Assembly (NCBI GenBank): GCA_021775575.1
Contig: JAJFHO010000209.1
Coordinates: 1 to 38,711, forward strand
Direction of reading: 5' to 3'
DNA length: 38,711 bases
Source: Hyphomicrobiales bacterium
GTDB taxonomy: Bacteria > Pseudomonadota > Alphaproteobacteria > Rhizobiales > Methyloligellaceae
The notes below the pieces were generated by a model that did no database searches, was not told the origin of the DNA, and worked only from the letters and a program-made list of their open reading frames with translations. Position numbers and translations under genes: made by a program. This document shows, piece after piece, positions 25,371 through 30,164 of the stretch; within the stretch, counting starts at the first letter, position 1; each line of letters opens with the position of its first letter.

Positions 25371-26242
25371 GACGCCTGCTCCATCTCGAGCAGCGCGGGG
25401 TCGAGCACACCGTCATATTCAAGCTCGCTCGGTCCCGTCATCAAAATGTGGCTGTCGCCCTTGCGCCACTCGATGAGCAGGGGCCCACCGGGCAGCGTCA
25501 CGCTTACGCTGCGCCCGGTCAGGCGCTTGCGGTGGGCGGCGACGGCGACGGCGCAAGCGGCGGTGCCGCAGGCGCGGGTGAGCCCCGCGCCGCGCTCCCA
25601 GACCTTTACCGCGATCGCGTCGGGGCCGGTCAGCTGTGCCAGCGAAATATTCGCGCGTTCGGGAAACAGCGGATGGTTTTCCAGCAGCGGGCCGATGCGC
25701 GCCAGGTCGTGCGCCTCCGTATCGTCGACCCAGAAGATGCAATGCGGATTGCCGATATTGACGGCGCTCGGGGAATGCAGGACCGGATCGTCGACGGGGC
25801 CGACCTGAAGCTCGATATAGCGGGTGTCGGCGAATTCCTCCGATAACGGAATTTCGTTCCATTCAAAACGCGGCGCGCCCATATCGACCGTCACCGTCCC
25901 GTCCGCATTGACCACGGCGCCGAGCAGCCCGGCCCGGGTTTCGATAGTGAGGCTCGGCCGCTTCAACTCCTCGGCCAGAATCGTCGCGACGCAACGCATG
26001 GCGTTGCCGCAGGCCTCGACCTCGCCGCCGTCGTGATTCCAGATCCGCATGAACGCGTCCCCGCCCGCCGGCGAGGCCTCGAGCGCGATCACCTGGTCGC
26101 ACCCCACGCCCCGTTCGCGGTCGGCGATCCGGCGGATCTCCCCGGCCGTGAAGGCGCGCGTGCGCGCGCGCAGGTCGAGCACGGCAAAATCATTGCCGAG
26201 TCCGTTCATCTTGCGCAGCGGTATGGAACCGGTTTCGCTCAT
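25367..26242 (-). CDS. dapF: Diaminopimelate epimerase
   Basis: A 291-residue enzyme converting LL- to meso-diaminopimelate for lysine and peptidoglycan synthesis. The two catalytic cysteines are in EACGNAMRC and TRACGTAACA. The N-terminal KMNGLGNDFAV is diagnostic. The ATG at 26242 has AAGG 6 nt upstream; the open frame continues upstream without another good start. It is first of the dapF-mtaB-ftsY-yciB operon. Confidence 0.96.
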   Translation of the reverse strand: MSETGSIPLRKMNGLGNDFAVLDLRARTRAFTAGEIRRIADRERGVGCDQVIALEASPAGGDAFMRIWNHDGGEVEACGNAMRCVATILAEELKRPSLTIETRAGLLGAVVNADGTVTVDMGAPRFEWNEIPLSEEFADTRYIELQVGPVDDPVLHSPSAVNIGNPHCIFWVDDTEAHDLARIGPLLENHPLFPERANISLAQLTGPDAIAVKVWERGAGLTRACGTAACAVAVAAHRKRLTGRSVSVTLPGGPLLIEWRKGDSHILMTGPSELEYDGVLDPALLEMEQAS

Positions 26243-26370
26243 ACTGTGCCTTATATGGTGATTGCTGCGCCGCCGCAAATAGGACAGCACCGACGATGAT
26301 GCGGCCGACACTTTGGCGCCCGCGGCCCTCCACATCGCAACCGACTTGGAATCCCGCTGCCATTCTGATA

Positions 26371-26405
26371 TTCAAGATGCAAATAATTCGTAATTGCATC
26401 TTGAA
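26371..26405. promoter_or_regulatory. 12-bp inverted repeat upstream of the oxidase-ZIP operon
   Basis: TTCAAGATGCAA (26371-26382) and TTGCATCTTGAA (26394-26405) are perfectly complementary across an 11-bp AT-rich spacer. It ends 14 bp before the oxidase ATG and runs into the AAAGGA ribosome site. It may be a regulator's operator or an RNA hairpin hiding the ribosome site. The half-site resembles NsrR boxes, but the spacing is 6 bp too long. Confidence 0.6.
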
Positions 26406-26419
26406 AGGATCGGTTCGCA

Positions 26420-27514
26420 ATGTTTGCGTGGCTGCAGCGCAAAGTTTCCCGCCGGCAGGGCCTTGCCGTCGTGGCGCAACTGGGCGGACTGGGCGCATTA
26501 CTCGGCGCAAACGGCCTCACGACGCCCGGCGAGGCGGCGCAACAGGGCCCCGGCGCGCAGCACAAGCGTATGCACGGCGCCGGCGCCAATGTGACCGTCG
26601 GAAGCGTCGACCACGTGCGCAACGGCTTCGATCCGCACGCGCTGCTTACCGACTGGGACACCGGAACGCCCGCCATAGACGCTCGGGGCCGGCGCGTGCG
26701 CAATTTCCAGATTGACGCGGTGGACAAGGATATCGAGATCGCCCCCGGGATCTTTTTCCCGGCCTGGACCTATAATGGCCGCATACCGGGACCGACCCTG
26801 CGGGCGGTCGAAGGCGATTTGGTCCGCATTACCTTTCGCAATGGCGGCAGCCACACCCACTCGCTGCATTTTCACGGCATCCATTCCGCGCGCATGGACG
26901 GTATATCGGGCGCCGGGCTTGTGGAGCCGGGCGGCGAGTTCGTCTATGAATTCACCGCCGCGCCCTTCGGCTGCCATCTCTATCACTGCCACGCGATCCC
27001 GCTGAAGCGTCATATCCACAAGGGGCTCTACGGCGCCTTTATCGTCGATCCGGACCCGGAGCGGCATCCCGAGATGAGGGACGTAGCGGCCTCGCGGCTG
27101 CTGGGGAGCGGGGAGAATTCCCGCTGGCAGGAGTTCGTTATGGTGATGAACGGCTTCGACACCAATTTCGACGACGAGAATGAGGTCTACGCCGCCAATT
27201 CGATCGCCTTCGCCTATATGAAAAAGCCGATTCCGATCGCCCGCGAACGCCCGGTACGCATCTATCTGGTCAATGTGACCGAGTTCGATCCGGTCAATTC
27301 ATTCCACCTGCATGCGAATTTCTTCAACTATTTCGACCACGGAACCACACTGGCGCCAACGTTGCGAACCGTCGATACGGTGATGCTGTGCCAGGGCCAG
27401 CGCGGCATCATCGAGTTCAGCTTCGCCGATCACGAGCCCGGCAAATATATGTTCCACGCCCACCAGTCCGAATTCGCCGAACTTGGCTGGATGAGTTTCC
27501 TCGAGGTGGTTTGA
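26420..27514 (+). CDS. Two-domain multicopper oxidase, exported
   Basis: A 364-residue oxidase with two cupredoxin domains. A Tat-type signal is likely (SRRQGLA, Arg11-Arg12, then a hydrophobic stretch to about 33). Trinuclear-cluster histidine pairs are His150/152, His189/191, His297/299 and His346/348. A type 1 site fits domain 1: His147, Cys190, His198, with Leu203 where nitrite reductases have Met. In domain 2 the Cys is replaced by Ala (HAH), so only one type 1 site remains, as in type B two-domain oxidases, which work as trimers. The substrate is unknown; Cu(I), Fe(II), Mn(II) or phenols are all possible. The ZIP gene starts on its last base. Confidence 0.88.
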   Translation: MFAWLQRKVSRRQGLAVVAQLGGLGALLGANGLTTPGEAAQQGPGAQHKRMHGAGANVTVGSVDHVRNGFDPHALLTDWDTGTPAIDARGRRVRNFQIDAVDKDIEIAPGIFFPAWTYNGRIPGPTLRAVEGDLVRITFRNGGSHTHSLHFHGIHSARMDGISGAGLVEPGGEFVYEFTAAPFGCHLYHCHAIPLKRHIHKGLYGAFIVDPDPERHPEMRDVAASRLLGSGENSRWQEFVMVMNGFDTNFDDENEVYAANSIAFAYMKKPIPIARERPVRIYLVNVTEFDPVNSFHLHANFFNYFDHGTTLAPTLRTVDTVMLCQGQRGIIEFSFADHEPGKYMFHAHQSEFAELGWMSFLEVV

Positions 27515-28656
27515 TGCTGCGCGCGGCCGCCTATTTCGCGCTTCCCCTGGCGACGTTGGCCGCGCTGGTCGCCCTGCTTGTCTGGCTTGCACCCTTCGAG
27601 GCGCTCACCCCCGGCGCGCCGCCGGTCGAGTCGCTCGCGTTCGAGACGGTCCGGCTCGAGCCCGGCCTTATCCGCGCGCGGGTCCGAGCCGACGGATCGG
27701 GGCCGGTCATCCTGGCGCAGGTTCATGTCGATGGAGCGTATCGCAGTTTCAGGCAGACGCCGCCGGGCCCGCTGGACCGGCTGCGCTCGGCGGAACTGGT
27801 TATTCCCTATCCCTGGGTGGAGGGCGAGGCGCATCATGTCGTCGCTCTCACAAGCTCCGGCGCAACCTTCGAACACATGATCGAAGTCGCGCAAATGACG
27901 CCCGATCCGTTTGGCCGGCAGACGCCGATGCTGCTGCTTGTCGGTCTGCTGCTGGGCCTGGCCCCGGTTTCCATCGGCCTCATGAGTTTTCCGGGCTTGC
28001 GCGCGCTGGGCCCCCGCGCGACCGGGTTCGTGCTGGCGGTGACGGTCGGCCTGCTCATCTATCTGCTGATCGATACGCTCGGCGAGGGGTTGGAAGCCGC
28101 GGAGACGGTTCTCGACCGTTTTCGCGGCGGCACGCTTGTCTGGGTGTCGGCGCTCGCCACCGCGGCCATCCTGACCGGCCTTGGCCGCAGCGGCACGAAG
28201 CCGCCGCACGGTCTGACGCTTGCTGCGTTCATCGCGCTCGGCATCGGTCTGCACAATCTCGGCGAAGGGCTCGTCGTCGGCGCGGCTTTCGCGTCCGGCG
28301 AGACGGCGCTCGCGGCCTTTCTTGTCGTCGGCTTTGTCATTCATAATGTCACCGAGGGCTTTGGTATCGCCGCGCCCTTGACCGGGACGCGGCCGCCGCT
28401 CGCGGCTTTCGCCGGTCTGGCCGCGCTCGCGGGGTTGCCGGCGCTGGCCGGTGTTTTCCTTGGGGCACAGGTGGTCAGCCCGTTATGGACCGCGGTCTGT
28501 TTTGGCATCGGTGCGGGCGCAATCGCTCAGGTTATTTTCGAGATAACCGCGCTGCTGGCGCGCCAGGGCGGCGCGGCGAAGCTTGCCGGCGCATCGGTGC
28601 TCGGCGGGGTGACGCTTGGGCTTGCCGTGATGTATGCGACGGCGCTTCTTGTCTAG
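27514..28656 (+). CDS. ZIP-family metal transporter with periplasmic N-terminal domain
   Basis: A 380-residue protein. Residues 1-26 are a membrane helix, about 27-135 a hydrophilic, probably periplasmic, beta-rich region, and 136-380 a ZIP-type bundle of about eight helices. The metal-site motifs HNLGEG (His247, Glu251) and HNVTEG (His277, Glu281) match helices 4 and 5 of ZIP transporters. These normally move Zn, Fe or Mn into the cytoplasm. The extra N-terminal domain is not part of the usual ZupT layout. Its start overlaps the oxidase stop (TGATG), so the two are made together. Confidence 0.85.
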   Translation: MLRAAAYFALPLATLAALVALLVWLAPFEALTPGAPPVESLAFETVRLEPGLIRARVRADGSGPVILAQVHVDGAYRSFRQTPPGPLDRLRSAELVIPYPWVEGEAHHVVALTSSGATFEHMIEVAQMTPDPFGRQTPMLLLVGLLLGLAPVSIGLMSFPGLRALGPRATGFVLAVTVGLLIYLLIDTLGEGLEAAETVLDRFRGGTLVWVSALATAAILTGLGRSGTKPPHGLTLAAFIALGIGLHNLGEGLVVGAAFASGETALAAFLVVGFVIHNVTEGFGIAAPLTGTRPPLAAFAGLAALAGLPALAGVFLGAQVVSPLWTAVCFGIGAGAIAQVIFEITALLARQGGAAKLAGASVLGGVTLGLAVMYATALLV

Positions 28657-28709
28657 CGGAGCGGGTACGTCGTTGACTGGACCCGATATTGCGGTGATTG
28701 TGGCGCGCC

Positions 28710-29327
28710 ATGGCCAGCGATGATTCCCGACAACCGAATGGAAAGAATTCCGACAACGCCCACAAGCACGGGCCGCGCGAGGCTTCAGGCTGGGTGCGCC
28801 GTTTCCTTGGCGGTGTCCGCGCCGGCGGCGATATTCTCGATGTCGCCTGTGGCGGCGGGCGCCATCTTCGCCTTGCGCTCGACCAGGGCTACCGGGTTAC
28901 CGGCATCGACCGGGACGTATCGAAACTCGACGATCTGGCCGAACGCCGCGACGTCTCTCTGATCGAGGCGGACCTGGAGGCCGGCCACCCGTTTCCGCTG
29001 CGCGAGCTGCGCTATGACGGCGTGATCGTGACCAACTATCTCTGGCGCCCGATCCTGTCCGAGATTGTCGGCTGCGTCGCCGATGACGGCCTGCTCATCT
29101 ACGAAACCTTCGCAGCCGGTCACGAGCGGCTTGGGCGACCCTGCAGCCCGGACTTTCTGCTGAACAATAACGAGCTTCTCGAGGCGGTCATGCCAAAGCT
29201 CACCGTCGTTGCATTCGAACATGGGGTCAGGCGGGGCGCGCGTCCGAAGATCGTTCAGAGGGTTGCCGCCTGCGGACCCGATCACGATTGGGCCGGCAGC
29301 GAACACATTCACTTGAGCGATCATTGA
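28710..29327 (+). CDS. Class I SAM-dependent methyltransferase
   Basis: A 205-residue cytoplasmic protein. Motif I is ILDVACGGGRHLRLAL, and the acidic end of strand 2 is TGIDRD. The later LIEADLE and YDGVIVTNYLWRP segments complete a Rossmann methyltransferase. Substrate unknown; it resembles small TehB/UbiE-like enzymes. The ATG at 28710 lacks a strong ribosome site; a TTG 12 nt upstream is possible. It lies 53 bp after the ZIP gene and may share its transcript. Confidence 0.82.
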   Translation: MASDDSRQPNGKNSDNAHKHGPREASGWVRRFLGGVRAGGDILDVACGGGRHLRLALDQGYRVTGIDRDVSKLDDLAERRDVSLIEADLEAGHPFPLRELRYDGVIVTNYLWRPILSEIVGCVADDGLLIYETFAAGHERLGRPCSPDFLLNNNELLEAVMPKLTVVAFEHGVRRGARPKIVQRVAACGPDHDWAGSEHIHLSDH

Positions 29328-29392
29328 ATCGCCTGAAGTTGCGAGTAATTCACTGGCCATGCGCCGCGCGGAAGCGGCGATTGGAGGCAGTG

Positions 29393-29686
29393 ATGAAACA
29401 ACGACTCCTGACAGCAACGGCGCTTTCGATTGGCGCCATCGGCCTGCTCGCGGCGCAGGCGAGCGTGCCGGCCAACGCCGGTCCGGGCGCGCGCGTTACC
29501 GCCCAAAGCAATTACGGCAACGGTTCCCTGACCGGAGCAGTCCGCAAAACCTCTTTCGGCTACCAGGTGCAGCTCCCCAGCGGGTTTTGGGAGGATTGCG
29601 AGCGCGACTGCCGCGAGGCGCTGCGCCGCAAACATCTCGACTTCTGGGAAACCCTGAATGAGGAAGGCCCCGGCAACCGGCGCTAG
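29393..29686 (+). CDS. Small secreted protein, tandem paralog A
   Basis: A 97-residue exported protein. The signal peptide is about 1-29 (LSIGAIGLLAAQASVPANA). The mature part has RVTAQSNYGNG, then GAVRKT, YQVQLPSGFWEDCERDC and HLDFW. Two Cys three residues apart (CERDC) may form a disulfide or bind metal. Over 58 residues, 44 are identical to the next gene. Similar YGNG...LPSG.W.DC proteins occur as hypotheticals in Rhizobiales; no function is known. GGAGG lies 5 nt before the ATG. Confidence 0.75.
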   Translation: MKQRLLTATALSIGAIGLLAAQASVPANAGPGARVTAQSNYGNGSLTGAVRKTSFGYQVQLPSGFWEDCERDCREALRRKHLDFWETLNEEGPGNRR

Positions 29687-29861: not shown

Positions 29862-30164
29862 ATGATGCGCAGACCATTAAGGGCGGCCGCTGCGATGCTT
29901 CTTTCCGTCAGCGCGCTTGTCGTTCCGCCGCCTGAGGCCGGCAACGCCGGGCCGCGCTACGGCCGTGTTACGGCGCATAGCTACTATGGCAATGGCAGCG
30001 TCACCGGCGCCGTGCGGAAAACAGGCAATTACTATCAGGTCCAGCTTCCCAGCGGTTTCTGGGAAGACTGTGAGGGCGATTGCCGTGAAACCCTGCGCCG
30101 GCAGCATCTCGATTTCTGGCGATCCATCGATGAGGATGCGCCGAATGGCGGCAACCGAAACTAG
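29862..30164 (+). CDS. Small secreted protein, tandem paralog B
   Basis: A 100-residue paralog of the preceding gene, about 76% identical in the mature core, with its own signal peptide (about 1-29, AAAAMLLSVSALVVPPPEAGNA). The CEGDC pair and HLDFW end are retained. Two adjacent ATGs (29862, 29865) could start it; the ribosome site is weak. The 175 bp between the two copies holds nothing recognisable. Confidence 0.72.
   Translation: MMRRPLRAAAAMLLSVSALVVPPPEAGNAGPRYGRVTAHSYYGNGSVTGAVRKTGNYYQVQLPSGFWEDCEGDCRETLRRQHLDFWRSIDEDAPNGGNRN

Follow-up and report, generated by a model that had tools for sequence, protein, structure and literature searches.

Bacterial manganese uptake is mostly credited to NRAMP and Sit/Mnt ABC importers. 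The combination of a multicopper oxidase (MCO) with a metal permease is known from Fet3–Ftr1, the fungal ferroxidase-permease, in which the oxidase Fet3 has three domains. In ammonia-oxidizing archaea, the gene encoding the oxidase MCO1 adjoins the gene of a ZIP permease (PMC7785015, PMC5767755, PMC5817080), and the archaeal pair is interpreted there as a system for copper uptake or for hydroxylamine oxidation. In Rhizobium leguminosarum, the Mn-responsive regulator Mur represses sitABCD and mntH (PMC5575495). Here, we describe an MCO–ZIP gene pair in a stretch of 38,711 nucleotides from a Hyphomicrobiales bacterium (GenBank assembly GCA_021775575.1, contig JAJFHO010000209.1; the whole stretch is hereafter called the window). 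An earlier note on this DNA, made from the sequence alone, had proposed an oxidase–transporter system for Cu, Fe or Mn and regarded such a pair as uncharacterized. The latter judgment stands in part only, as the adjacency is already in print for the ammonia-oxidizing archaea named above. Our literature search, outside which most subscription papers lay, gave no report of a bacterial pair or of its manganese control among the matches listed. The oxidase-plus-permease kind of system is already known, and the MCO–ZIP pair is a variant of it and no new category; the new element here is manganese-type control of the pair, which is well supported.

A conserved gene pair and its operators

The MCO gene (26420-27514, plus strand, ATG start) encodes a two-domain oxidase of 364 amino acids, which was recognized by Pfam and by motifs. 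The ZIP gene (27514-28656, plus strand) encodes a transporter of 380 amino acids with an N-terminal extension, which was recognized in an AlphaFold2 model and, below the cut-off, by Pfam. The ZIP start was placed at the ATG at 27514; the longest open reading frame reported by the program opens upstream of it, at 27388. The two genes have one base in common (TGATG), and the coordinates thereby bear out the overlap claimed in the earlier note.

We assessed the adjacency in several sets of genomes. The set of relatives comprised 61 genomes, including the window's own. Close MCO orthologs were present in 10 of them (E ≤3.3e-144; next match 9.6e-25), and the ZIP gene adjoined the MCO gene on the same strand in 10/10. 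A scan of named genomes returned at least 584 stretches encoding an MCO relative (E ≤1e-3), the best 80 of which were analyzed, and ZIP was located beside MCO in all 80. Close relatives are over-represented among these loci because they are the best 80 of at least 584. The 80 are loci and not genomes (L089 and L107 lie in one genome), L086 is also plasmid record L033, and five of the first ten orthologs recur among them. Two members of a phylum sample of 398 genomes recur there as well. In that sample, MCO was detected in four genomes, the window's own included, with an adjacent ZIP in 4/4; ZIP was detected in five, the fifth being a C-terminal fragment of 170 amino acids (G233) without an MCO within 9 kb. 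Adjacency is therefore conserved in many genomes, and it is not a peculiarity of this one, which was the first of the outcomes that the note had named as refuting its proposal.

The junction was examined using the ZIP start nearest the MCO stop. The genes overlapped in 73/80 loci, by 4 bases in 56, by 1 base in 15 and by more in 2. The remaining loci showed gaps of 1-4 bases (six) or a ZIP in two frames (L090). That is, the overlap is conserved and the one-base form is not. ZIP stays beside MCO in relatives, in phylum genomes and in all but one of the plasmid records read, which supports the gene unit of the earlier note.

Two types of operator were found at the promoters of the pair, i.e., an MntR-type box, TATAGC-N4-GCTATA, and a Mur-type box, TGCAAAT-N7-ATTTGCA, with the short form TGCGAAT-N-ATTCGCA. 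The window carries the Mur type. An inverted repeat, TTCAAGATGCAAATA-5-TAATTGCATCTTGAA (26371-26405; 15-nt arms, 93% complementary), spans the 21-base Mur-type core TGCAAATAATTCGTAATTGCA (26378-26398), which ends 21 bases before the MCO start codon and has 0 mismatches to the pattern set on relatives. A first pattern with a six-base spacer matched nothing and was rejected; the true spacer is seven. No sigma-70 promoter was found within 26200-28800.

Regulator genes were then compared with the boxes. Beside the pair, a DtxR/MntR-like gene was present in 33 of the 80 loci and a Fur-like gene in 7, as judged by hidden Markov models and distance. Clustering of the neighbors within 4.5 kb of the 80 loci (L038-L117), for which 10/40 cluster representatives were scanned, gave MntR as the commonest partner (28 loci); in 27 of these, it lies upstream on the opposite strand. 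At the chosen cut-offs, an MntR-type or Fur/Mur-type box was present at 45/80 promoters, and the Markov-model expectation among promoters was 0.5 for the MntR type and 0.1 for the Mur type. The Mur-type box occurred at 27/47 loci without a local DtxR/MntR gene compared with 0/33 with one, whereas the MntR-type box occurred at 15/33 DtxR/MntR loci compared with 3/47 others. The cut-offs were picked after inspecting the MCO promoters; therefore, the Fisher values for this distribution are descriptive.

The metal was assessed at NRAMP and SitA promoters, i.e., promoters other than those of the MCO, in genomes carrying the pair. The 20 strongest NRAMP matches, from 17 such genomes, provided 20 promoter regions. 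An MntR-type box was found in 7 of these and a Mur-type box in 7 others (expected, 0.10 and 0.07), which amounts to 14/20 compared with an expected 0.17. Across 11 Mur-type genomes, the Mur-type pattern matched 26 sites compared with 1 for the reversed control. Twelve of the 26 were MCO promoters, 8 stood before ZnuA/SitA-family genes (in 8 of the 11 genomes), 2 overlapped each other at mntH, 1 was near a Fur-family gene (L187) and 3 were unassigned. The eight boxed SitA-like binding proteins scored 152-222 bits with EfaA, the Mn-type model, and ≤85 bits with ZnuA, and reached no model cut-off. Thus, the operator is common to mntH and sit promoters in the relatives, and NRAMP and SitA-like promoters bear the same Mur-type or MntR-type boxes as the MCO–ZIP pair. 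MntH and SitABCD of rhizobia differ from the pair in that they belong to transporter families other than ZIP and have no oxidase.

The window's own genome assembly consists of 281 contigs and is 98.75% complete and 4.45% contaminated; absences from it were judged by Pfam searches. No match to NRAMP and no match to DtxR/MntR was found in the 281 contigs. The Fur family is represented by one Fur/Mur, one Irr and one Zur. The Fur/Mur protein scores best with Fur models; it shares 55% identity with a Fur/Mur whose gene diverges from a SitA-like gene across a promoter that carries the box. The single ZnuA-family binding protein is of the zinc type (ZnuA 219 bits, EfaA 38), and this genome yielded no NRAMP or Sit-type gene with which its box could be compared. 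The sole further Mur-type box in the genome (≤3 mismatches) is on contig C172 (L122:1501-1521, 2 mismatches), approximately 63 bases ahead of a gene of PF11449, "putative 10TM heavy-metal exporter" (1585-2793), which is a candidate for a further member of the manganese regulon.

These results make manganese control of the pair well supported, and it is likely that the pair serves manganese uptake. Among the metals offered in the earlier note, the promoters point to Mn and part of the neighborhood points to Cu; because of the promoters, we ranked Cu and Fe below Mn as cargo. The earlier proposal thus pointed the right way, and the metal of the pair can be named as manganese with fair confidence.

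Architecture of the oxidase and the transporter

The MCO scored above the cut-offs of Pfam Cu-oxidase_3 (76.3 bits) and Cu-oxidase_2 (70.8 bits). Its nearest solved structures were 7rab (541 bits) and 3gdc (324 bits), followed by copper nitrite reductases at ≤137 bits, and profile and structure-sequence matches relate it to NirK. The entries 7rab/7rac and 3gdc belong to the same family as the window MCO and bear no deposited name beyond "multicopper oxidase". The eight members nearest to 7rab, among 95 of the family, share 73-77% identity with it, and every one of the eight is accompanied by ZIP. A search by entry code, outside which most subscription literature lay, found no paper on 7rab, 7rac or 3gdc.

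The leader of the MCO contains a twin-arginine (Tat) motif, SRRQGL (residues 10-15; 26447-26464, plus strand). We aligned 97 sequences, comprising the window protein, 7rab and those of 95 loci. The arginine pair was kept in 96/97, the remaining sequence having a gap, and was invariant across the 17 members of a separate alignment (A1). The export of the oxidase proposed earlier is thus predicted from its leader. The two cupredoxin domains hold four HxH motifs, as in a two-domain MCO, and by motif the trinuclear site comprises H150, H152, H189, H191, H296, H298, H346 and H348. The type 1 site in domain 1 comprises H147, C190 and H198 with L203. The eight trinuclear histidines and H147, C190 and H198 were kept in 97/97 sequences. 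Position 203, the expected axial ligand, was Met in 62 and Leu in 35 of the 97, and it is Leu in the window. The roles of these ligands were presumed from nitrite reductase and MCO structures. Type 1 copper is predicted in domain 1 only, where the motif is HCH; domain 2 shows HAH, HPH or HGH without Cys. We take this arrangement to be that of a type C two-domain MCO. The archaeal MCO1 is likewise a two-domain MCO beside a ZIP gene with an axial Leu at the type 1 site, and its reported lineage is limited to thaumarchaeal genomes; the comparison with the window pair draws on its published description (PMC7785015). E288, D290, N293 and E351 of the window MCO were invariant and E354 was kept in 99/100, clustering near the copper motifs of domain 2, the domain that lacks the type 1 Cys. 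The carboxylates E288, D290, E351 and E354 may form a site for a metal substrate.

Pfam Zip gave 22.9 bits for the window ZIP protein, below the gathering cut-off of 35.1, and matched 54/55 members at E ≤0.01. The NCBIfam model of ZupT fits the C-terminal part of the protein at 28.6 bits, far below its cut-off of 252; the protein is thus no ZupT equivalog. The AlphaFold2 model had a mean predicted local distance difference test score (pLDDT) of 92.4, and BbZIP matched residues 139-380 of it with Z 20.0 and a root-mean-square deviation (rmsd) of 3.3 over 219 residues, indicating that this part is predicted to adopt the 8-helix ZIP fold. The metal-site motifs are H247-N-x-x-E251-G and H277-N-x-T-E281-G. 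H247, N248, E251, N278 and E281 were present in 100/100 sequences and H277 in 98/100; we assume that these residues of the two central helices have their usual roles in the metal site. ZupT and BbZIP differ in that the HNxGEG and HNxTEG of the window ZIP lack the Pro of the usual HNxPEG, and in that they have neither of two elements preceding the ZIP core.

These elements, assigned by DSSP of the model and by structure match, are an extra N-terminal membrane helix, TM0 (residues 2-25; 27517-27588, plus strand), and a periplasmic β-sandwich domain with a FlaF/FlaG-like fold (residues 39-123; 27628-27882, plus strand). The earlier note was right about an extra periplasmic part of about 110 residues, to which the modeled membrane helix is now added. 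In the whole model, the β-sandwich matched FlaF and FlaG with Z 11.9-12.1 and rmsd 1.5-1.9 over 88-91 residues (FlaF 4zbh, Z 12.1, rmsd 1.9, 91 residues). When modeled alone (pLDDT 89.6), it matched FlaF/FlaG with Z 11.5-11.7 over 85-91 residues (best rmsd 1.7 over 91). Lower matches of the isolated domain were archaellum and archaeal pilus subunits (Z of about 10) and subunits of methane/ammonia monooxygenases (Z 8-9). Foldseek E-values were weak (best 5e-4; FlaG 9e-4). The likeness to the archaellum stator proteins FlaF and FlaG is in fold only, at 14-17% identity. These proteins presumably also carry an N-terminal helix before the sandwich, whereas the domain of the window ZIP, unlike archaellum FlaF/FlaG, is fused to a transporter. 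Q69 and W101 of the domain were invariant and H107 was present in 90/100, and the sequence reveals no obvious metal-binding domain. In the 398 phylum genomes, a hidden Markov model of the domain matched no protein other than the four ZIPs linked to an MCO, one of which is that of the window. Docking of the MCO at ZIP is a plausible candidate function of this domain.

Proposed function and rival explanations

We propose that the pair is a manganese-acquisition unit induced at manganese scarcity, with ZIP as the permease and the MCO as a metal oxidase, a reading to which we assign a probability of approximately 0.55. When manganese is plentiful, a Mn-sensing repressor, which would be Mur of the Fur family in the window genome and MntR in many relatives, would occupy the operator before the MCO start and keep the pair off. 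At low manganese, one message with coupled translation would provide both proteins. The MCO would leave the cell interior folded, by the Tat system. ZIP would be an inner-membrane protein whose FlaF/FlaG-like domain projects into the periplasm and most likely holds the MCO at the transporter mouth; ZIP would bring the metal into the cell. At this mouth, the MCO, with its full set of oxygen-reducing copper ligands, would act as a metal oxidase in one of two ways. It may oxidize competing Fe(II) or Cu(I) and so leave mainly Mn to a promiscuous ZIP. Alternatively, it may oxidize the cargo and pass it on, in the manner of Fet3 and Ftr1. The pair resembles Fet3–Ftr1 in combining a multicopper oxidase with a metal permease; however, its permease is a ZIP and not an Ftr1, its oxidase has two domains, and its control points to manganese. 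Tentatively, it could represent a manganese counterpart of Fet3–Ftr1, in which the FlaF/FlaG-like domain holds the MCO at the ZIP mouth, import is rendered selective or downhill by oxidation of cargo or competitors, and the two-gene cassette has spread between Bacteria and Archaea.

Several observations weigh against this proposal. The need for an oxidase in a cell short of Mn(II) is unexplained, and the task of the MCO is the weak point of the proposal. Neither a DtxR gene nor a Mur-type or MntR-type box was found at 17/80 loci, and 18/33 DtxR loci had no MntR-type box at ≤2 mismatches; several of the latter show a TTAGC-N4-GCTAA variant, which was spotted post hoc. Six of the 20 NRAMP regions had neither box, and in G473, G497 and G460 the NRAMP promoter is of the Mur type but the pair is of the MntR type. 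Fur-family boxes can report iron too. NCBIfam fails to part the SitA-like proteins from the zinc protein AztC, whose model gave scores similar to those of EfaA, higher in 3/8 and clearly so in L182. The window genome holds a second, ordinary ZIP. An NRAMP match of any strength was found in 22/48 pair-bearing genomes, and a strong one in 17. Because 17/48 also hold a strong NRAMP, a simple replacement of MntH by the pair is unsupported. Several plasmid pairs have no Mn regulator alongside, and some of these are within metal islands; ArsR is close by in certain cases. Near the 80 loci, we counted MerR-type genes at 14, CDF at 14, P-type ATPase at 10, the PCuAC copper chaperone at 9, DUF411 at 9 and SCO1 at 8.

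MCOs often oxidize Cu(I), and the pair may be a copper unit in which the MCO turns Cu(I) into Cu(II), which ZIP imports or by which the cell is protected. The PCuAC, DUF411, SCO1, P-type ATPase and MerR-type genes counted above are in line with this explanation, as are some plasmid copies that adjoin P-type ATPase, CopC/CopD, CopZ, SCO or ArsR genes. Copper uptake has been proposed for ammonia-oxidizing archaea, and in N. viennensis MCO1 and its ZIP were reported to be mildly induced when Cu is limiting (PMC7785015). However, the copper genes vary in distance and strand, unlike the MntR gene, which is the commonest neighbor (33/80) and whose upstream copies are all (27/27) on the opposite strand. 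NRAMP and SitA-like genes have the same two operator types, and the copper genes may only meet the copper need of the MCO or mark metal islands. We consider a copper unit unlikely. An iron unit, i.e., a ferroxidase whose partner ZIP either takes up iron or keeps it out, controlled by an iron-sensing Fur, appears quite unlikely. MCO ferroxidases are common, the Mur-type box is a Fur-family box, the window regulator scores best with Fur models, and one box is near a Fur-family gene (L187). Nevertheless, the boxes mark NRAMP and SitA-like promoters, an MntR-like gene stands beside the pair in 33/80 loci, and the window genome also has Irr, which we take to be the usual rhizobial iron regulator. 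Moreover, Mur of Rhizobium responds to Mn (PMC5575495).

Two explanations remain. Known bacterial Mn(II) oxidases include MCOs, and the pair may produce Mn(III/IV) or confer Mn tolerance when induced by high Mn, with ZIP in a side role or as an exporter. One carrier is named "Bacterium MnTg02" (L049), the second Mur-type box of the window genome precedes the PF11449 exporter-type gene by about 63 bases, and in B. subtilis MntR is able to activate efflux genes (as quoted in PMC9240420). However, the operator core ending 21 bases before the start codon is in a position suited to repression, and the same boxes occur at Mn uptake genes. In addition, ZIPs are importers, and we regard this explanation as decidedly improbable. 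Finally, the MCO may be an electron-transfer or nitrogen-cycle enzyme to which ZIP merely supplies copper. The relation of the MCO to NirK and the Rieske or plastocyanin genes that follow the pair in some lineages are consistent with this explanation, and hydroxylamine has been proposed as a substrate of MCO1 (as quoted in PMC5767755). The Mn-type control of the pair argues against it, and no electron-carrier third gene was detected among the ten neighbor families scanned around the 80 loci. The pair is also widespread, including in groups that, to our knowledge, do not oxidize ammonia. This last explanation is very improbable.

If the pair is a manganese-acquisition unit as proposed, it constitutes a further unit of this kind in several bacterial phyla and haloarchaea, often plasmid-borne. 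In many alphaproteobacteria, the pair is under the same switches as Mn importers yet includes an oxygen-consuming copper enzyme, which raises the question of why a cell should oxidize while starving for manganese. If it is true that the archaeal MCO1–ZIP descends from this pair, metal uptake would be the role of MCO1, which would then not be the missing hydroxylamine oxidase. A solved family member (7rab) and a window genome showing no NRAMP or Sit-type importer make the manganese reading testable.

Spread and neighborhood of the pair

Among 72,556 plasmids, the MCO query retrieved 144 records and the ZIP query 145. The tallies by genus, for which records were not paired one by one, were 37/37 (MCO/ZIP) in Pseudosulfitobacter, 30/30 in Rhodococcus and 10/10 in Sinorhizobium. 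The laboratory strain Sinorhizobium fredii NGR234 carries the MCO gene on NC_012586, with the ZIP gene immediately downstream. Of the 144 MCO-bearing plasmids, 74 were predicted to be conjugative. We read 22 of the 144 records, hand-picked for spread, and the pair was adjacent in 21, from alphaproteobacteria, cyanobacteria, actinobacteria, bacilli, Deinococcus and haloarchaea. An MntR or metal-dependent regulator was annotated beside the pair in 10 of the 22 (two confirmed by Pfam), and Fur in 1. In a plasmid of Paroceanicella profunda (L192:1682-7369), a Tni/Mu-type transposon is inserted between the MCO and a shortened ZIP, and the broken pair is still beside mntR. In Deinococcus, DtxR-like and NRAMP genes are divergent from the pair, and in Halorubrum a GDT1-family gene is near it. 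At locus L005, the ZIP match ends at residue 305, and at L012 the MCO begins at the contig end. A phage origin was rejected, with no relative among viral contigs and no PHROG match.

MCO and ZIP distances were correlated at 0.86-0.90 (100 pairs), as would be expected if the two genes travel as one. In the 79 nearer members, the transmembrane part of ZIP correlated with the MCO slightly better than the N-terminal domain did (0.83 vs 0.79). Partial correlations of 0.59 for the N-terminal domain and 0.32 for the transmembrane part (100 pairs) ignore phylogeny and were not used as evidence of an interface.

A fixed third gene of the unit was rejected, as MntR is the commonest neighbor (33/80) and other families occur at 8-14 loci each, at varied distances. 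YkuD was near 10/80 loci. Several further neighbor clusters resemble shadows of reading frames. Rieske, plastocyanin and TatA genes take the third position in some lineages only. A Rieske 2Fe-2S gene follows MCO–ZIP in one cyanobacterium and two actinobacteria (L025:7144-7578, L026:7201-7620 and L036:6216-6497). By annotation, the slot after the pair is filled by plastocyanin in haloarchaea (L027, L032, L139, L140) and by tatA in bacilli (L028, L136, L141).

Downstream in the window, 29390-29686 and 29862-30164 encode tandem paralogous small proteins with leader-like N-termini, which are 59% identical. Neither had a Pfam match, and both keep the stretch GFWEDCExDCRExLRRxHLDFW.

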